Numbered from the stretch's first letter, positions 9,681 to 24,545 are shown. The stretch is DNA of 64,000 nt from Myxococcales bacterium (GCA_020846875.1 JADLDB010000074.1:62001-126000); one strand, 5' to 3'. Made by a program: numbers and translations. The notes: generated by a model from the letters alone, not told the origin.

Positions 9681-10496
9681 ATGAAGTGCCCTTCCTGCAA
9701 CAGCACGGTGCGCGACGACGCGGCGGTCTGCCCGAAGTGCGACACGGTGCTCGATCCGTCGCTGCTCGACGCCGGCCCACCCGGCGAGGACGAGGCCCCC
9801 GCCCGCCCTGCCCCCCGGCCCGTCGCCTCGAAGCCCGGGGTGAAGAAGGTGCTGAAGAAGCCCGCTCCCGGCAAGCGCCCGGCGGCCAGGCCCGGGGCGC
9901 CGAAGTCCCGCATGCCCGAGGCGCCGGCGCGCGCCGCGAAACAGGAGACGGCCGACTGGCGCTCCCAGGTGTCTCAGTCCGACTGGGACGAGATGCAGCA
10001 GAAGGACAAGGAGAAGTTCGTCGCCGACAAGGGCCTGGATCCCGACGACGTACTCAAGGACGCGCGCGGCTTCTTCGCCGTGCTGTCCTCCTCCGACAAG
10101 CTGGCCTTCTTCGGCACCGCGGCCATGCTGCTGTCCACCTTCTTCCCCTGGAAGGAGACGGTTCAGGACGGTGACGTGCTGGGCCTGCTGTCCGCCGGGA
10201 TCGTGGTGTCGCTGCTCTCGGCGCTGGCCCTGGCCAGCCTGGTGCTGCGGGTGAGGAAGGCGTTCTCGGTGAACCCGCTCCTCCCGTGGATCCTCCAGTT
10301 GGGGTGCTTGGGCTTCGGCATCGTCTGGTGCCTGGTCTACGTGAAGATGTCGTGGGACTCGACCATGGTGCGCAGCCCGATCGGCAACTTCGACATGTGG
10401 GCGTCCAAGCCCACCTTCGGGGTGATCTTCGGCTTCATGGCCGGCGTGGTGGGGACGCTGGGGACGGTGGGCGGGCTCAAGGATCTGGGCCGGTGA
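9681..10496 (+). CDS. Zinc-ribbon membrane protein preceding MoxR
   Basis: 271 residues. Residues 1-20 form a zinc ribbon with two CxxC knuckles (CPSC and CPKC). A Pro/Ala/Lys-rich linker (about 40-90) and a helical stretch containing DWDEMQQKDKEKF follow. The C-terminal part has about four membrane segments (from FFGTAAMLLSTFFPW onward). Its TGA overlaps the GTG of the MoxR gene (GTGA), so translation is coupled. The function is unknown. Position suggests a membrane partner of the MoxR/DUF58 pair. Confidence 0.75.
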   Translation: MKCPSCNSTVRDDAAVCPKCDTVLDPSLLDAGPPGEDEAPARPAPRPVASKPGVKKVLKKPAPGKRPAARPGAPKSRMPEAPARAAKQETADWRSQVSQSDWDEMQQKDKEKFVADKGLDPDDVLKDARGFFAVLSSSDKLAFFGTAAMLLSTFFPWKETVQDGDVLGLLSAGIVVSLLSALALASLVLRVRKAFSVNPLLPWILQLGCLGFGIVWCLVYVKMSWDSTMVRSPIGNFDMWASKPTFGVIFGFMAGVVGTLGTVGGLKDLGR

Positions 10497-11425
10497 AGGC
10501 CACGCCGCTCCAACGGCTGGAGGCCGCGCTGTCCGGCGTGGTGCTGGGGCAGCGCGCGGTGCTGGCCGACTTGATCACCTCCTTTCTCGCCCGCGGCCAC
10601 GTCCTGCTGGAAGGCGTGCCGGGCGTGGCGAAGACGCTCACCGCGCGCACCCTGGCGAAGGCGCTGGGCCTGGCCTTCACCCGCATCCAGTTCACCCCGG
10701 ATCTCATGCCGTCGGACGTGGTGGGCACCAGCGTGTTCCGCCCACAGGACGCCGGCTTCCACCTGGTGAAGGGGCCGATCTTCACCGAGGTGCTAGTGGC
10801 CGACGAGGTGAACCGTACCCCGCCCAAGACGCAGGCCGCGCTGCTGGAGGCGATGGAGGAGCGGCAGGTCACCATCGACGGCGTCACCCACCCGCTGCCC
10901 CCGCACTTCTTCGTGGTGGCCACGCAGAACCCATTGGAGCTGGAGGGCACCTACCCCCTGCCCGAGGCGCAGCTCGATCGCTTCCTGATGCGGGTGCGGG
11001 TGGGTTACCCGGACGCGGCGGCCGAGCTGGAGCTGCTCACCCGGCCGCAGACGGCGCAGGCGGCGCTGGAGCAGGTGGCGCGGGTGCTGCCCTTGGAGGA
11101 GCTCACCGCCCTGCAGGCCGAGGCGGCCAGGGTGCGCTGTGACGAGAGCGTCAGCCGCTACGCGCTGGCCCTGGTGCGGGCCACGCGCGAGTCGCCGAAG
11201 CTGAAGCTGGGGGCGTCGCCGCGGGCGGGCCTGGGGCTGTTGGCGGCGGCGAAGGCGCGCGCGGCGCTGGCCCAGCAGGGCTTCGTCACCCCGGACGAGG
11301 TGAAGGCAGTAGCGCCGTCGGTGTTGAACCACCGGCTGGTGGTGAAGGCCGAGGCCGAGGTGGACGGAGTGTCGGCCGACGACGTGATCGCCTCGCTGCT
11401 CGAGTCCGTCGAGATCCCGCGGTGA
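10493..11425 (+). CDS. MoxR-family AAA+ ATPase
   Basis: 310 residues beginning at a GTG inside the GTGA overlap with the preceding gene. Walker A is LLEGVPGVAKT, Walker B is VLVADEVNRTPPKTQAALLEAMEE, and sensor 1 is FVVATQNPLELEGTYPLPEAQLDRF broken into family-typical blocks. Arginine-finger and C-terminal lid segments follow. MoxR ATPases act as chaperones that assemble metal- or protein-dependent complexes together with VWA/DUF58 proteins. The DUF58 gene follows directly with another 4-base overlap, forming the standard pair. Confidence 0.93.
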   Translation: MKATPLQRLEAALSGVVLGQRAVLADLITSFLARGHVLLEGVPGVAKTLTARTLAKALGLAFTRIQFTPDLMPSDVVGTSVFRPQDAGFHLVKGPIFTEVLVADEVNRTPPKTQAALLEAMEERQVTIDGVTHPLPPHFFVVATQNPLELEGTYPLPEAQLDRFLMRVRVGYPDAAAELELLTRPQTAQAALEQVARVLPLEELTALQAEAARVRCDESVSRYALALVRATRESPKLKLGASPRAGLGLLAAAKARAALAQQGFVTPDEVKAVAPSVLNHRLVVKAEAEVDGVSADDVIASLLESVEIPR

Positions 11426-12753
11426 GGTCCGCGGTGAGCGGCCGTCCCGTCCCCACGCAGCGCGCGCTGGTGATCGCCGCCGCCGGTCTGCTGCCCGCGT
11501 CCCTGGCGCTCTTCGCGCCGCCGCTCGCGTGGGCTGCGCTGGCGGTGGATCTCGCGTTGCTCCTCCTGGTGGCGGCGGACTTCCTGCGCGCGCCCGGCGA
11601 GGAAGCTCTCCGCGTGGAGCGGCGGGTGGAGCCCAACCTCTCCTCGGGGGTGCCGAACCGGGTGCGGCTGTTGCTCTCGCAGGCCCCCGGCGCGCGCGGC
11701 GAGCTGGTGGGCGAGCTGCGCGATCTCGTCGGCCCCGGGCCGCTGGTGGAAGGACACCGCCAGCCGTTCGCCTTCGAGGGGCGAGCCAGCCTGGAGTACT
11801 CGGTGACGCCTCGCACGCGCGGCGACCTGCTGCTGGGGCCCTTGACGGTGCGGCTCCTGGGCCCGCTGGGGCTGTGCGCGCGGCAGCTCACCCTGCCCCT
11901 CACGCACGCGGTGAAGGTGTTCCCGGATCTCTCCGCGCTGTCGAAGGACGCGCTGGCGCTGGCGCGCTCCAACGAGGACGCGGCGCGGCGGGTGATGCGG
12001 GTGCGCGCTGAAGGCCGGGAGTTCGAGTCGCTGCGCGAGTACCGTCTCGGGGACGATCGCCGCACCATCGACTGGAAGGCGACGGCCAGGAAGGCGCGGC
12101 CCTTCGTCCGGGTGCACCAGCCCGAGCGTAACCAGCAGGTGCTGCTCCTGCTGGACTGCGGGCGGCACATGGCCGGGGAGGTGGACGGCCGGCGCAAGCT
12201 GGATCACGCGGTGGACGCGGCACTGCGGGTGGCGCGGGTGTCGCTCGATCGCGGCGACCTGGTGGGCGTGCTGGCGTACGGCGCGGCGGTACAGGCGTGG
12301 CTGCCGGCGCGCAAGGGCCGCGAGCAGCTCCGGGCGATCGCCCACGCGCTGTACCGGGTGCAGGCCACGCTGGAGGAGAGCGACCTGGGCAGCGCGCTCG
12401 AACTCGCCTTCGCGCGCGGGGTGCGGCGAACGCTGGTGCTGGTGATGACGGATCTGTTGGACGCGGACTCCTCGGCGGCGCTGGTGAAGCGCACCGCGCG
12501 CCTGGTGCCCCGGCACCTTCCCCTCATCGCCTCCCTGCGGGACGAGGCGGTGCATCGGACCGCCACCCGGGCGCCGGAGGATCGCCTCGCGGCCTATGAG
12601 CGCTTCGTCGCCTCTCGGCTGGAGGACGACGCGCGGGCCACGGTGGCCCGACTGCGGGAAGCGGGCGCACGGGTGCTGCGGGCGTCGGCGGCGGACTTCG
12701 GGGCGGCGACGGTGGGCGCCTACCTCGATCTCAAGGGGCGCGGGGTGCTGTAG
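11422..12753 (+). CDS. DUF58 membrane-anchored VWA-like protein
   Basis: 443 residues with a GTG start overlapping the moxR stop. Two N-terminal membrane segments (about 15-55) precede an Ig-like beta region. The DUF58 motif REYRLGDDRRTIDWKATAR lies around residues 205-225. The following VWA-like segment has LLLLDCGRHM in place of the MIDAS DxSxS, so the metal site is degenerate, as is usual for DUF58. With MoxR it likely forms a chaperone module at the inner membrane. Confidence 0.9.
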   Translation: MRSAVSGRPVPTQRALVIAAAGLLPASLALFAPPLAWAALAVDLALLLLVAADFLRAPGEEALRVERRVEPNLSSGVPNRVRLLLSQAPGARGELVGELRDLVGPGPLVEGHRQPFAFEGRASLEYSVTPRTRGDLLLGPLTVRLLGPLGLCARQLTLPLTHAVKVFPDLSALSKDALALARSNEDAARRVMRVRAEGREFESLREYRLGDDRRTIDWKATARKARPFVRVHQPERNQQVLLLLDCGRHMAGEVDGRRKLDHAVDAALRVARVSLDRGDLVGVLAYGAAVQAWLPARKGREQLRAIAHALYRVQATLEESDLGSALELAFARGVRRTLVLVMTDLLDADSSAALVKRTARLVPRHLPLIASLRDEAVHRTATRAPEDRLAAYERFVASRLEDDARATVARLREAGARVLRASAADFGAATVGAYLDLKGRGVL

Positions 12754-17703: not shown

Positions 17704-19473
17704 ATGGCCACCGCCAAGCCCCTGCTCCCCGAGGCGCAGCTCGGCCCCGCCGAAAAGCTGCTCGACCTGGTCCTCTCCTCCTCCGCGCACCTCTGGCACA
17801 ACCGCCCCGGCATCGAGCTCGCCGGCACGTGGCAGCCGAAGCCGAAGAAGGGCCAGCCGCTGCCGAAGAACGCCCGGGAGGTGAAGCCCGGCCTCCACCT
17901 CGCCGCCGCGACGCGCCTCTACGAGCGCCTGCTGGAGATCTACCGCCTCAACACCGAGCTCTTCGCGCACTTCGCCAGCTACGCGCTGAAAGAGACCGAC
18001 TGGCGCGATCTCAAGGTGGCCTGCGCCGCGCTGATGCTGGTGCAGAACAAGTCCGGACAGCCGGTGAAGGAGGACGACGGCCTGGTCGCCTTCTACGACG
18101 ACGACCTGCGCGCGCTGGGCGAGGCGATGCTGCTCTTCTACGAAAAGAAGTCGGCGAGAATGATGACGCCCAAGGCGGTGCTGCGCGTGGCGCAGTTGCT
18201 GGAGACCGAGGAGATCGCGCGGCTCAACCGCAAGGCCGGCTTCGGCGATCCCGCCTCGAAGAAGCCGCCGCTGGGCCGCTGGAAGCGCGCCGCGCAGAAG
18301 TGGCTCGCCGCGCGCGAGAAGAACCCGGCCCTGCTGCAGGGCCTGGTGAAGGCCGGGTTCAAGGAGACGATCAAGGCCATCGCCCGGAAGTGCGGCTACA
18401 AACCCGACAGCCAGGCCTTCTTCGAGGCGCTGGGCTGGAAACAGAGCCAGGCGAAGGGCGGCCACCGCACGGTGGGCCTGGGCGAGCTCAAGCTGCAGAA
18501 GCAGGAGCGCTTCGACGGGCTGGCCGAGGCGGAGATCTGCGAGGCGATCGTCGAGCAGTCGCTCACCTACAAGGACGTGGTGGGCCGCCTGCCGAAGGAC
18601 GTGGGCCTCACGCCGGCGATCATGGCCGCGTTGTTGCCGTCCCTGTCCGACAAGGATCTGCGGATCATGACGCCCACCCTGGAGGAGCTGGGCCTGATGG
18701 CGGATCGCGAGGTGCGCGCCCGCTGGGAGAAGGCGATCGAGACCTCCACCGATCAGCGGGCGCTCAACATCGCGAAGAACGTCCGCTCGAAGGAGGTCCG
18801 CGAGAAGCTGGAGCAGGCCGCCGACGTGGCCGCGCAGAAGGCGGTGGCCGAGGCGACCAGGGACGTGGACGTGCGGGTGATGTTCCTCATCGACAAGTCC
18901 GGCTCGATGCAGGGGGCGATCGAGCAGTCCATCGAGGCGCTCTCGAAGATCCTCGCCGGCTTCCCGCCCCAGCGGCTGCACATCGCCACCTTCGACACCA
19001 TGGGCACGGTGCTGGTGCCCAAGGCGCCCAGCCGGGCCGGGGTGCAGCACATGCTCAAGGGGATCAAGGCCGACGGCGGCACGGTGCACGGGGCCGGGGT
19101 GCGGGCGATCCACCGCGCGGGGGTGACGTTCCCCGACTCGTCGCGCCTGGTGGTGATCGTCGTAGGCGACGAGGCGGGCGAGGCCGGCGATCAGCTCGCC
19201 CGCGCCTTCACCGACTGCGGCTACCGGCCGTCGGCGCTGGCCATGCTCGTCTCGGTGGCGGGCAACGCGGCGCGCGGCAACTCGGTGCGGACCTGCGCGG
19301 GCTTCATGAAGCTGCCCTTCAGCGAGGTGAACGTGTCGCACTTCGACGATCCGTACCAGGTGACGCGCGTGTTGAAGGCGCTGCTGGACGCGCCGGTGGC
19401 GGTGGGCGCGGCCCCGCAACTGGGCTGGGTGGAGCGGGTGATGAAGACGCCGCTGCTTCAGCTGCCCGCCTGA
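17704..19473 (+). CDS. VWA-domain protein with long helical N-terminus
   Basis: 589 residues from the ATG at 17704. Residues 1-385 are largely helical, including RLYERLLEIYRLNTELFAHF and a repeat-like set of short helices. A C-terminal VWA domain starts near 390 with a complete MIDAS, D397-K-S-G-S401, and a downstream Thr and Asp-Glu. The architecture recalls TROVE/Ro60 proteins and the VWA component of ternary VWA systems, but I cannot assign either. No signal peptide, so it is cytoplasmic. The next gene begins 2 bases after its stop and the one after that is coupled, giving a three-gene operon with a JAMM protease. Confidence 0.72.
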   Translation: MATAKPLLPEAQLGPAEKLLDLVLSSSAHLWHNRPGIELAGTWQPKPKKGQPLPKNAREVKPGLHLAAATRLYERLLEIYRLNTELFAHFASYALKETDWRDLKVACAALMLVQNKSGQPVKEDDGLVAFYDDDLRALGEAMLLFYEKKSARMMTPKAVLRVAQLLETEEIARLNRKAGFGDPASKKPPLGRWKRAAQKWLAAREKNPALLQGLVKAGFKETIKAIARKCGYKPDSQAFFEALGWKQSQAKGGHRTVGLGELKLQKQERFDGLAEAEICEAIVEQSLTYKDVVGRLPKDVGLTPAIMAALLPSLSDKDLRIMTPTLEELGLMADREVRARWEKAIETSTDQRALNIAKNVRSKEVREKLEQAADVAAQKAVAEATRDVDVRVMFLIDKSGSMQGAIEQSIEALSKILAGFPPQRLHIATFDTMGTVLVPKAPSRAGVQHMLKGIKADGGTVHGAGVRAIHRAGVTFPDSSRLVVIVVGDEAGEAGDQLARAFTDCGYRPSALAMLVSVAGNAARGNSVRTCAGFMKLPFSEVNVSHFDDPYQVTRVLKALLDAPVAVGAAPQLGWVERVMKTPLLQLPA

Positions 19474-19474
19474 C

Positions 19475-20497
19475 ATGGTCGACTACAAGAAGTTCCTCGG
19501 GAAGCAGGAGGCGCTGGTGCTGCCGTGGTTGGGCGGCCCCACCGTGGAGGCCGAGGGACGGCGCCTGCGCCTGACGAAGCGGCCGAAGGCGCCCGGGTGG
19601 TACCGCTTCGAGGTGAAGGGCCGCGACGCGACGCCGGGTGAGGCGGCGGACACGCCCGACGTGTCGAAGCTGCCGAAGGTGCGCGGCTGGCTGTGGGGCG
19701 AGCGGCTGGTCCACGAGGGCGCGCGGGCGGAGCCGATGGCGTTGCTGCCCACCGAGGAGCCGCCGCTCTTCTCGCCCCTCTCCGCCCGGCGCTGGTACTC
19801 GGGGGAGCTGTTCTTCGACGCGCTGGAGTTCGAGTCGGAGGCGGAGGGCCAGGTGCGCGAAGCGCTGGCGCTGGGGAGAGGGCTCGCCGAGGTGAAGGGG
19901 GTGGCCGCGGGCCTCCGCGCGGCCTTCGGCTACGCGCTCCTCACCGCGGCGTCGAAGAAGTCGGGCGTGCCCTTCGTGGCGTCGGAGGTGAAGCCGAGGG
20001 TGGCGGAGGTGGCGCAGGGCGGCGCGGCGACCGCCGAGGCGGCGCTCGAGGCGCTCGAAGAGGAGCGCGTGGTCGCCCGCCGGGAGTGGCTCGAGCTGGA
20101 GCGGCGTCGCCTCGAAGCGTTGGTGCGCGAAGAGGTGGAGGCCGAGCGCGAGGCGCGACGCACCGAGCTGGAGCGCCGCGAGGCCGAGCTCGCCCAGGTG
20201 CTGCGGCAGCGGCGCGGACGCGGCGGGCCGGTCGAGCTGGCCGAGGCAGCGCTGGCCCAGGCCGGCGCGGTGCTGGAGACGGCGCGGCGGCTCAACGCGA
20301 ATCAGCTTGAGGTGGTGTTCCGCTTCATGGGCGAGCGCTTCATCTCGATCGTCGACGCGCACACGCTGCAGGTGATCGACTCCGGCATCTGCCTGGGGCA
20401 CCCGCCGAGAGACGACTTGATCACCCTGGACAGCCTTCCCTCCGTCATCAAGGAGGCCATCGACGGCGGCTTCCTCGTCATCCTGAGGTGGCCATGA
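19475..20497 (+). CDS. Uncharacterised protein between VWA and JAMM genes
   Basis: 340 residues. The N-terminal 80 residues form an apparent beta-rich module (VLPWLGGPTVEAEGRRLRL then GWYRFEVKGR). A charged coiled coil covers about 185-265 (ERRRLEALVREEVEAEREAR). The last 65 residues are a compact alpha/beta module ending VIKEAIDGGFLVILRWP. The ends resemble the accessory X proteins described for VWA-containing ternary systems in myxobacteria, but this is from memory of the pattern. It could bridge the VWA protein and the JAMM enzyme. Its stop overlaps the next start (ATGA). Confidence 0.65.
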   Translation: MVDYKKFLGKQEALVLPWLGGPTVEAEGRRLRLTKRPKAPGWYRFEVKGRDATPGEAADTPDVSKLPKVRGWLWGERLVHEGARAEPMALLPTEEPPLFSPLSARRWYSGELFFDALEFESEAEGQVREALALGRGLAEVKGVAAGLRAAFGYALLTAASKKSGVPFVASEVKPRVAEVAQGGAATAEAALEALEEERVVARREWLELERRRLEALVREEVEAEREARRTELERREAELAQVLRQRRGRGGPVELAEAALAQAGAVLETARRLNANQLEVVFRFMGERFISIVDAHTLQVIDSGICLGHPPRDDLITLDSLPSVIKEAIDGGFLVILRWP

Positions 20498-20838
20498 GGG
20501 AGGTGTGCCTGCTCATCGGTCGCGGCGGCGCGGTGCTGTGGAGCGACACCAGCGACAGCGCGATGGCGCTCGCGGATTCGCGCGCCCGGTGGGAGGCGAT
20601 CTGGCGGCATCGCGAGGAGCTGGAGGCCGTAGTGCACAGCCACCCCGCCGGTCCGCACGCCTTCTCCCATGAGGATGAGACGACCATGGACGCGGTGGAC
20701 GCCGCGCTGGGCAAGGGCCTGCGCTACGTCGTCGTGTCGCCGAAGGGCCTGGTGGTGCGCGAGGGCGGGAAAGAAGTCACCGCGCCCGCCGAAGCCCCGT
20801 GGTGGGTGCCGCTCCTCAGGCTGGCCTCGGGGATGTGA
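20494..20838 (+). CDS. JAB1/MPN (JAMM) metalloprotease-like protein
   Basis: 114 residues from an ATG coupled to the preceding stop. The JAMM zinc motif is complete: HSHP at 48-51, then S58 and D61 (H-x-H-P-x6-S-x2-D). A possible partner Glu is E3 in the first strand. JAMM enzymes cleave isopeptide or peptide bonds after ubiquitin-like modifiers or act on sulphur-carrier proteins. No E1, E2 or ubiquitin-like gene is in the window. It is the last gene of the VWA operon. Activity is inferred from the motif only. Confidence 0.8.
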   Translation: MREVCLLIGRGGAVLWSDTSDSAMALADSRARWEAIWRHREELEAVVHSHPAGPHAFSHEDETTMDAVDAALGKGLRYVVVSPKGLVVREGGKEVTAPAEAPWWVPLLRLASGM

Positions 20839-22183: not shown

Positions 22184-23299
22184 TTAGAAGCTGTAGTTGG
22201 CCTTCTCCGCCTGGCTGCGGGCCGACTCGAGCAGCGCGTCGTCCATCGTCTTGGCGCCGTCCTTGGCGCGCTTCTTCAGCTCGCCCTGCACGAACTCGTC
22301 GCGCTCCTTCGACAGCTTGGCGATCTCCGCCTGGATCTCCGCGCGCTCCTTCGCCTTCTCGGCCACGAAGGCCTCCCGCTGCTTGGCGTCCATCTTCTGC
22401 ATCTCGGCCGGCAGGGCCGCCGCGGGCATGTTCGCGATCGACTCGCCCTTCTTCTTCGCGTCCACCAGATCCCACCCGGAGTTGTCGTACATCGCCGAGG
22501 CCTTGGCCGCCGCGCGGGTCGACGCCGCGCCCGCGCTCATCCCCTGCGCATTCTTGTCCTGCGCCTCCTGCCGCGCCTCCGCCGCCTTCCCACCGGCGCC
22601 GTACGCGATGTACGTCTTGTTCATCTTCGCCGACAGCGCCGCGAGCTGCGCGTCCTGCGGGGCGTCCACCCGCGCCACCGCCCGGTTCTGATCGATGAAC
22701 AGGTAGTTCCCGTCCGCCAGCTTCGCCGCTGCCATCCACTGGCCGTTGATGCCTTCCTGCTCCGTGCCGGCGTGGATGGTGTTCACCACGATCCCGCGCT
22801 CGATGGCCGCCTTCACCGACGCCTGGAAGGGCACCGGGCCCTGGGTGAACGGCTCGTTGCCGGCGATGTAGATGAGCTTCAAGTCGCCCGCCCGGCTCGA
22901 CCACTCCAGCTCCTTCATCGCGTGCTTGATCACCGCGCCGCAGTACTCCTCTCCGCCGTTGGTCTGCAGCTTGAAGAGCGCTTCGGACACCTTGTCGAGA
23001 TCGGTGGTGAGCGGCACCACGCGGCGCACGTAGTCGTTGCCCGCCGGCAGGTTGTCGTTGCCGTACTCGTAGAGGGCCAACTCCAGCCTGGCGCGCTTCC
23101 CGTCCCGCTTGGCGGTGGCGAAGGTGTTGACGATCCGCCAGAGCTGCTCGCGCGTCTGGTTGATCAGGCCGTCCATGCTGCTCGAGGTGTCGATCAGGAT
23201 GGCGATCTGGACCTTCGGATCGGGCTTGTCGGAGTCGGCGAGACAGGGGACGGCCATCAACGCCGCGACGCACGCGGCGAGCAGAGAGATGCGCTTCAT
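22184..23299 (-). CDS. Exported VWA-domain protein with coiled-coil C-terminus
   Basis: 371 residues. A cleavable signal peptide (MKRISLLAACVAALMAVPCLA) is followed by a VWA domain with a complete MIDAS (IDTSSSMDG near residue 37). The domain includes LIYIAGNEPFTQGP, typical of periplasmic VWA proteins in proteobacteria. Residues about 245-371 are charged and helical (EMQKMDAKQREAFVAEKAKER), probably coiled coil. The start at 23299 is divergent from the gene at 23400, with 100 bases between. A strong terminator follows. Role unknown; likely a protein-binding periplasmic factor. Confidence 0.85.
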   Translation of the reverse strand: MKRISLLAACVAALMAVPCLADSDKPDPKVQIAILIDTSSSMDGLINQTREQLWRIVNTFATAKRDGKRARLELALYEYGNDNLPAGNDYVRRVVPLTTDLDKVSEALFKLQTNGGEEYCGAVIKHAMKELEWSSRAGDLKLIYIAGNEPFTQGPVPFQASVKAAIERGIVVNTIHAGTEQEGINGQWMAAAKLADGNYLFIDQNRAVARVDAPQDAQLAALSAKMNKTYIAYGAGGKAAEARQEAQDKNAQGMSAGAASTRAAAKASAMYDNSGWDLVDAKKKGESIANMPAAALPAEMQKMDAKQREAFVAEKAKERAEIQAEIAKLSKERDEFVQGELKKRAKDGAKTMDDALLESARSQAEKANYSF

Positions 23300-23399
23300 G
23301 TGGGTGCCTTTCGGTTGGGACTGCCAGGGCGCGGGTTGCGCCGGTGGAGGCTTGAAACGAGGCACGAGCCGAAACGATCTGTAGACTGGCGTCGTCTCG

Positions 23400-24545
23400 A
23401 TGGAGCGCGCGCGAACCTCCAGTCTCGATGAGGAGTTACGCATCCGCCTGGAGGGCGCGGACGAGGTGTTGGCGCGCGGCGTGCGCGACCTGGACGACGT
23501 GTGCCGGCGCCTGCGGGCGGGCCACGAGAAACTCGAGCGCGACGACGTCTTGGCGCTCAAAGGCGTGTTGAACGGGCTGCCGGCCCTCGACGAGGCCGAG
23601 GCGAAAGCGGATCGGCTCGAGGGGGCGGGAGCGCTGGCGCAGGACGCACGCCGCGCGAAGGACGCGCTGTGGCAGCAGGCGAAGGCGACCCTCACCGCGC
23701 TGGGAAAGCCGGTCGACGGCGGCCTCGCGGAGAGCCTGCGCCGGCTGGTGAGCGCGCTGCGCTACCTCGGGCGCCCGCCCGGGCCGAAGGAGCGCACGCT
23801 CTTCGAAGGCACCCTGGAGCGCCCATGGCTGACCTCCGCTTTCCTCGGGCTGCAGCTCCTCCTGGTGCTGCTGGCGATGTCCTGGCCGATCCCCGCGCTC
23901 GCCCTGGCGGGCACGGCCTTCGTGCTCTGGCTGCGGCGGTCGCGCACCCGCTGGAGTCTGCTTCCCGATCGCCTGCAGCTGAGGGCCCCGCGCCAGCCGC
24001 TCCTCGACGTACAGTACGAAGCCATCACCTCGGTGAGCGCGGGGGCGTCGTCCGTGGAGGTGCGCGCGCCCGAGCTCGTCCTCGAGCTGCCCACGCGCAA
24101 CCCCACCGGCCTGGCGCAGCTGCTGCGCTCGATGGTGGCCCACCTGGGCAGCGCGTCACCGCACCCCGGGCCGAGCGCCGTCATGACCGTGGAGCTCAGC
24201 ACGGAGGGCCGGGGCACGGCGCTCTTCACGCCCCAGGGCGTCTTCGTCGTGCTGCGCGCACAGGAGGACGACCTCGTGGCTCAGGTGTTGCCGGGCGCCG
24301 ACAGGGCCACGGTGGTGGACGCGCTCGAAGTGCTGCGCCACCTGCCGCCGGAGGTGCTCGCCCGCCGCCTCGTCGCCCTGCCCGGCGCCTGGTGGCCCGG
24401 CGACGTCGTGCGGCGAGACACCGCCAGGCTCGCCTCCCGCACCTTCCAGCGCGGGGAGCAGGTGCTGCACGCCACCGGGTTGAAGCCCGAGCGCCTGGGG
24501 TACCTGGAGGATCTCGACGATCTCACGCGCGGCTGGGGCCGCTGA
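23400..24545 (+). CDS. Hypothetical membrane protein with helical N-terminus
   Basis: 381 residues. The first 130 residues are charged and helical (LEGADEVLARGVRDLDDVCR). Two adjacent membrane segments follow (about 145-180: AFLGLQLLLVLLAMSW and PALALAGTAFVLWL). The cytoplasmic C-terminus begins with a beta-rich, PH-like stretch (WSLLPDRLQLRAPRQPLLDVQYEAITSV). No catalytic motif was recognised. It starts at ATG 23400, in a region divergent from the VWA gene, and stands apart from the kinase gene downstream (95 bases). Confidence 0.65.
   Translation: MERARTSSLDEELRIRLEGADEVLARGVRDLDDVCRRLRAGHEKLERDDVLALKGVLNGLPALDEAEAKADRLEGAGALAQDARRAKDALWQQAKATLTALGKPVDGGLAESLRRLVSALRYLGRPPGPKERTLFEGTLERPWLTSAFLGLQLLLVLLAMSWPIPALALAGTAFVLWLRRSRTRWSLLPDRLQLRAPRQPLLDVQYEAITSVSAGASSVEVRAPELVLELPTRNPTGLAQLLRSMVAHLGSASPHPGPSAVMTVELSTEGRGTALFTPQGVFVVLRAQEDDLVAQVLPGADRATVVDALEVLRHLPPEVLARRLVALPGAWWPGDVVRRDTARLASRTFQRGEQVLHATGLKPERLGYLEDLDDLTRGWGR

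Follow-up and report, generated by a model that had tools for sequence, protein, structure and literature searches.

A VWA, coiled-coil and JAMM protease operon of a Myxococcales bacterium as part of a probable five-component ubiquitin-like system with a Ro60-like protein

A stretch of 64,000 nucleotides from a Myxococcales bacterium (contig C74 of the genome G000; the whole stretch is hereafter the window) carries three tightly linked genes, which encode a VWA-domain protein, a coiled-coil protein (CC) and a small JAMM/JAB metalloprotease. The question raised by this locus is what a JAMM enzyme is doing in the company of these two proteins, with no gene for a ubiquitin-like protein (Ubl), an activating enzyme (E1) or a conjugating enzyme (E2) near it. 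An earlier note had described the three genes as a protein-processing or conflict module with a stand-alone JAMM enzyme. The reported absence of Ubl, E1 and E2 genes holds for the window but not for the genome, in which the genes for a cognate Ubl and an E1 were found on another contig (C59), and the JAMM enzyme is no longer stand-alone, because the same two genes adjoin the trio in phages and in several bacteria. The trio is probably one part of a five-component Ubl system, consisting of a TROVE/Ro60-like VWA protein, an OB-like/coiled-coil protein, a JAMM protease, a Ubl and a minimal E1. The reading of the locus shifts from a stand-alone JAMM trio to a split Ubl system with a Ro60-like component.

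The operon itself is real, with all three genes on the plus strand. The only correction to its first description concerns the VWA/CC junction, where the gap is one base (TGA-C-ATG) and not two; the CC and JAMM genes overlap by ATGA. The order VWA-CC-JAMM is kept in nearly all of several dozen relatives examined, with exceptions such as L038 (with an insertion between VWA and CC) and L010 and L011 (without adjacent VWA), and the arrangement is therefore far beyond chance. Rare co-occurrence elsewhere, which would have spoken against a common function, was looked for and not found, and the trio is taken as a conserved functional unit. Upon Pfam analysis, VWA_2 and VWA_CoxE were detected in the first protein and Prok-JAB above the cutoff in the third, while CC gave no family in the Pfam, NCBIfam and PHROGs scans. 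PADLOC gave no defence match for the trio.

The remaining two components were recognized through a distant match in genome G018 (a member of another family), in which VWA and CC genes are followed by a gene for a small protein ending in RPKTPFG and then by a gene for a ThiF/E1-like protein. A first viral scan with the CC of the window alone had yielded nothing, and the module surfaced only via this phage-like contig binned in G018. Matches to the VWA protein of G018 were found next to a large tRNA array in Virus Rctr197k, a Caudoviricetes record, and in IMG/VR contigs (436 and 529 kb). Wider scans then brought up phage contigs by the dozen, many of them 200-620 kb long, and bacterial contigs as well. 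The gene order in phages is VWA, CC, JAMM, a Ubl of about 90 residues ending in RPKTPFG, and a ThiF/E1 protein of about 190 residues. When only distinct loci with sufficient downstream sequence were counted, all five genes were present in this order in 32 of 36 VWA-anchored, 19 of 21 CC-anchored and 16 of 16 Ubl-anchored phage loci. The phage status of the records is based on the IMG/VR classification, on terminase-like matches (E<1e-10 in 8 of 20) and on the annotated record KX853510. An E2 or E3 was sought among the genes near the operon in 45 distinct E1-bearing phage loci, but no sixth near-universal family was detected, the next commonest real families resembling HNH endonucleases. The VWA tree is divided, with full support, into a phage clade and a bacterial clade, the latter mostly of Myxococcota. 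A Schekmanbacteria contig from a metagenome-assembled genome (L069) and a Paraliomyxa miuraensis contig (L070), both with the complete five-gene module, fall inside the phage clade, possibly as integrated phage or by transfer.

In the genome of the window, a Ubl homologue (E 1.3e-9), which reads MATLNITYNG...YLRPKVPFGA, and an E1 homologue (E 1.6e-54) are adjacent on contig C59 (locus L183), and all five components are thus encoded in G000. The five genes stand together in the Polyangia-type loci L083 and L084 and also in L075 and L033; in Corallococcus (L081 and L086) the Ubl-E1 pair is situated about 6 kb downstream of the trio, and in several other genera it is located elsewhere. A total of 77 among 195 Myxococcota genomes gave CC matches, of which 74 belong to the family of the window, one to the same order and two to others (G018, the phage-like contig described above, and G004). 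The match in G004 (E 1.6e-4) is limited to residues 228-303 and lacks a neighbouring trio, and it was set aside as a spurious coiled-coil similarity. The Ubl search of the same genomes gave matches in exactly the 76 genomes with a real CC and in none without CC (Fisher p = 3e-54, not corrected for phylogeny). Genera g4 and g8 each include species with both Ubl and CC and species with neither.

Some additional features were noted around the separate Ubl-E1 pairs. L198 (genome G102) and L199 (genome G099) each have another copy of VWA (70-72% identical), located close to the Ubl-E1 pair and on a different contig from the trio, which is read as a rearranged or duplicated module. On C59 of G000, a gene for an FHA-domain sigma-54 activator (L183:9769-11076, minus strand) is situated directly upstream of the Ubl-E1 pair on the same strand, and a homologue of this activator adjoins the pair in each of the seven relatives with a split locus that were compared. 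By analogy with the sigma-54 control of RtcB/Ro operons, it is a possible regulator of the pair.

The JAMM protein scored 31.6 bits with Prok-JAB (PF14464; cutoff 25 bits), and all seven members tested match this family. Its zinc motif is full, as claimed before, with E3, H48, H50, S58 and D61 at 99-100% in 103 homologues. A RadC identity, raised as an alternative at the outset, was checked and rejected, with a RadC match in only one of the seven members (E 0.0067); a PDB sequence search with the JAMM gave nothing. The E1 on C59 scored 71.5 bits with ThiF/E1 (PF00899; cutoff 28.1 bits), and is a minimal domain of about 190 residues with conserved GxGALGS, R21, D31, N39, Q43, K54, D94, D97 and C149. 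Its structural relatives are MoeB, ThiF and UBA proteins (best MoeB, E 8e-15), and its TC149E motif falls on the MoeB cysteine motif. For the Ubl, a beta-grasp fold with a C-terminal Gly (strand-strand-helix-strand-strand) was predicted with confidence by AlphaFold (predicted local distance difference test score, pLDDT, 92.6), and the neighbours of this model are beta-grasp domains (ubiquitin variants, MoaD, PB1 and PI3K domains; Z 4.2-4.8). A PDB sequence search with the Ubl gave nothing meaningful. The C-terminal motif and Gly are kept in 65 of 65 distinct Ubls, followed by a variable tail of 0-61 residues: 10 end at the Gly, 28 continue for a single residue and the others for 2-61. The Ubl of L122, which ends in RSKTPFGA, is the sole pattern miss. 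The conserved Gly and the variable tail together give the protein the look of a protease-matured Ubl precursor. In the phage Ubls of L104, L108, L123 and L168, the tail beyond the conserved Gly contains CxxC pairs (such as CPHCLRKY and CCHTCGRPY), and these tails are perhaps small metal-binding modules released by JAMM.

The comparison with TROVE proteins suggested in the earlier note for the VWA protein was rewarding. The alignment by hhalign of the VWA protein with six TROVE proteins gave a probability of 95.5 and an E value of 1.5e-8 over 292 colinear columns. The VWA parts alone gave E 5e-6, and the N-terminal parts alone a score of 32.0, compared with 21.9 or less for 40 column-shuffled controls. 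Based on these profile comparisons, with shuffled controls for the N-terminal region, the protein is identified from its sequence as a divergent TROVE/Ro60 relative, with a homologous helical region followed by a VWA domain with a metal ion-dependent adhesion site (MIDAS). The MIDAS, previously described as intact, is complete and invariant across the homologues aligned. The Pfam TROVE model gave no match for the VWA protein of the window and none in the G000 genome, PDB sequence searches with the VWA profile found generic VWA domains only, and no Rfam Y RNA was found in the loci scanned.

The middle protein has two conserved end modules that flank a variable coiled coil, in agreement with its first description. 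In the AlphaFold model of CC (pLDDT 94.1), the N-terminal beta domain resembles the double-OB inter-domain of the ARC/Mpa proteasomal ATPases, with a weak score (Z 5.2-5.3), and the order of elements in the C-terminal module (helix, four strands, Cys306, helix) recalls E2. Residues G304, C306 and L307 (G304-x-C306-L307) and R338 are 100% conserved in 109 homologues, and Cys306 may be an E2-like acceptor, as the only E2 candidate in the module. A PDB sequence search with CC gave coiled-coil-type matches only. The positions of all these features are summarized in Table 1.

Table 1. Location of the module components and their features on the window (contig C74) and on contig C59 of genome G000
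Feature	Position	Strand	Remarks
Component 1, TROVE/Ro60-like protein (N-terminal helical region, C-terminal VWA)	17704-19473	+	589 residues
MIDAS DKSGSM (D397, S399, S401)	18892-18909	+	invariant in 36 homologues
Other MIDAS residues, T460 and D489	19081 (T460), 19168 (D489)	+	invariant in 36 homologues
Component 2, coiled-coil protein (CC) with two conserved end modules	19475-20497	+	340 residues
CC N-terminal beta domain, residues ~11-120, double-OB-like	19505-19834	+	AlphaFold pLDDT 96-98; weak VIA-align Z 5.2-5.3
CC coiled coil, residues 184-248	20024-20218	+	length differs among homologues
CC C-terminal module, residues ~250-340 (helix, four strands, Cys, helix)	20222-20494	+	
CC Cys306 in DSGICL, candidate thioester (putative E2-like) acceptor	20390-20392	+	100% conserved in 109 homologues
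Component 3, JAMM/JAB metalloprotease	20494-20838	+	114 residues; Prok-JAB 31.6 bits
JAMM motif H48-S-H50-P-x6-S58-x2-D61 (partner Glu, E3)	20635-20676	+	99-100% conserved in 103 homologues
Ubl, contig C59	~18467-18703	-	
E1, contig C59	~17873-18460	-	

A second, unrelated VWA-domain protein is encoded at 22184-23695 (minus strand), 1.4 kb past the trio, and its homologue is found near the trio in L052, L053 and L063.

The surroundings of the phage copies hint at a link to RNA. Within the phage operon loci of 18 records, 258 tRNA genes were observed as against 38.6 expected from the totals of the records, two different tRNA finders having been used, and the clustering of tRNA genes around the operon was strong in 11 of these 18 phages. 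RtcB, the RNA ligase that accompanies Ro proteins in known repair operons, was detected in half of the phage records (10 of 20); one of these has it within the locus, and four more have it at a distance of about 5-18 kb. Classical Ro-like proteins are present in actinophages. The tRNA arrays and RtcB in phages suggest that the module serves in the surveillance or repair of RNA. One phage contig with 38 tRNA genes around the operon also carries a transfer-messenger RNA gene (L118:11865-12243; tag ANDNHFVEEIRAAA). In G000, RtcB matches were found on two contigs (C179:145901-147079 and C113:76082-77131).

From these observations we infer a possible course of reactions, including conjugation, its target and its purpose. 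JAMM would clip the short tail after the RPKxPFG end of the Ubl, and might also detach the Ubl from its targets. The E1 would adenylate the exposed Gly and carry the Ubl on Cys149, from which the Ubl would move to Cys306 of CC or straight to a target. With RNA bound to it and by means of its MIDAS, the Ro60-like ring would pick the target, or it would itself be under the control of the Ubl. The complex of NLE1-UBL with the MIDAS domain of MDN1 (Midasin) (PDB 8ql1) was among the fold hits of the Ubl model, and provides a precedent for the binding of a Ubl by a VWA domain. We propose only tentatively that a Ro60-like ribonucleoprotein (RNP) is run by its own Ubl cascade, with the Ubl marking proteins or RNA on the ring for tRNA/RNA quality control in huge phages and myxobacteria.

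A number of observations weigh against the Ubl system as proposed. The structural Z scores of the Ubl stay below 5, a level not convincing by itself; no Ubl-family match in Pfam was obtained at E values up to 1 for the Ubls scanned; and the Ubl ends in a single Gly after Phe, not in GG. No gene of the module gave an E2 family match, E2 was absent from the CC structure hits listed and from the PDB sequence matches, and the C-terminal module of CC was unmatched to E2. In G000 the two gene groups are separated by tens of kb or more, because the trio is on C74 and the Ubl-E1 pair on C59. The clustering of tRNA genes is absent in seven of the 18 phages and at the chromosomal copies. The support as a whole consists of sequence and predicted structure.

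The strongest competing explanation is that the Ubl acts as a sulfur carrier for tRNA thiolation. Like ThiS, MoaD, Urm1 and CysO, it would form a thiocarboxylate for the thiolation of tRNA or other RNA, JAMM would trim the precursor (as Mec+ does on CysO), E1 would activate it, and the Ro-like and OB-like proteins would present the RNA. The closeness of the minimal E1 to MoeB, the presence of MoaD among the structural neighbours of the Ubl and the frequent location of phage copies within tRNA arrays are in favour of such a carrier. We nevertheless regard it as rather unlikely, since no family of rhodanese, thiolase or PP-loop ATPase recurs near the operon, the terminal Gly is single, and the invariant cysteine of CC suits a thioester relay at least equally well.

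The Ubl might otherwise be a non-covalent or terminally attached partner that is charged and clipped, assembles on the Ro-like VWA protein via the MIDAS and switches RNP assembly without conjugation to other proteins. The invariant MIDAS, the invariant E34 in the Ubl alignment and the MDN1-MIDAS/NLE1-UBL structure are in line with such a switch, but a complete E1 with its catalytic Cys and a JAMM protease would be needless for mere binding, and we consider it improbable. The three-protein processing or conflict module of the earlier note, in which the VWA and CC proteins deliver to JAMM a substrate other than a cognate Ubl, agrees with the separation of the trio from the Ubl-E1 pair in many Myxococcaceae. 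It is nonetheless very improbable in view of the co-occurrence of Ubl and CC across the 195 genomes and of the five-gene synteny in phages and in L069, L070, L075, L083, L084 and L033.

If a Ro60-like RNP is indeed run by a Ubl, no Ubl or Ro system known at present would resemble the module. The bacterial Ubl systems investigated to date are regarded for the most part as anti-phage defences, whereas the present module is complete in huge phages and is carried by many predatory myxobacteria. It would link Ubl conjugation to a Ro-type RNP, would plausibly account for the retention of large tRNA arrays, together with RNA-repair genes, in some huge phages, and as a minimal system of five proteins could be rebuilt in vitro. 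No earlier description of the five-gene system was found in the literature searched, the coverage of which was incomplete, and in the main text of a 2021 survey that covered 224 jumbo phages neither JAB nor ThiF appears. The five-gene Ubl tagging system with a Ro60 relative is apparently undescribed, though its priority is unproven.

The sulfur-carrier pathways CysO-Mec+ and ThiS-ThiF follow the same logic of Ubl, minimal E1 and JAMM. The present module differs from them in the single Gly, in the extra RNA-related partners and in having no recurring sulfur enzyme nearby. The Ro60/TROVE RNP and RtcB operons share with it the helical region followed by a VWA domain with MIDAS, and profile similarity, and TROVE in jumbo phages has been described as an RNA-repair platform (PMC7824862); the present protein differs in being coupled to a Ubl module, in being missed by the Pfam TROVE model and in the lack of Y RNA at the loci scanned. 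The MoxR-vWA ternary systems (PMC7159879) likewise combine a VWA protein with partner genes and are common in organisms of multicellular habit, the Ubl systems described there going with FtsH-ternary systems. The suspected kinship of the trio with these myxobacterial systems was not borne out, since the phage copies of the module have no recurring MoxR AAA+ partner. A MoxR AAA+ and DUF58/VWA pair, a common chaperone-type pair, is located at 10286-12753 of the window, 5 kb upstream of the trio, and none of the relatives compared showed it next to the module.

Closer in composition are two systems with a Ubl, an E1 and a JAB protein. In the anti-phage Ubl conjugation system BilABCD, the Ubl is matured by the JAB protease (PMC11354881), but BilA carries a pair of Ubl domains, the E1 (BilD) has two domains and the E2 (BilB) has a CEHH motif; the present module, with one Ubl domain, an E1 of about 190 residues, no recognized E2 and no further conserved gene at its loci, is not BilABCD. 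The prokaryotic Ubl operon type 6d consists of a JAB protein with an N-terminal alpha+beta (JAB-N) domain, an E1-like protein, a small stand-alone beta-grasp protein with a C-terminal Gly and a conserved-cysteine protein that matches E2 profiles (Iyer, Burroughs and Aravind 2006, PMC1779556), and no VWA is mentioned in the main text of that study. Since the JAMM protein of 114 residues is the core domain only and its partners are TROVE-like and OB-like/coiled-coil proteins, the present module falls outside the definition of type 6d. Operon type 6d is nevertheless the nearest known system, built on the same idea with different parts.

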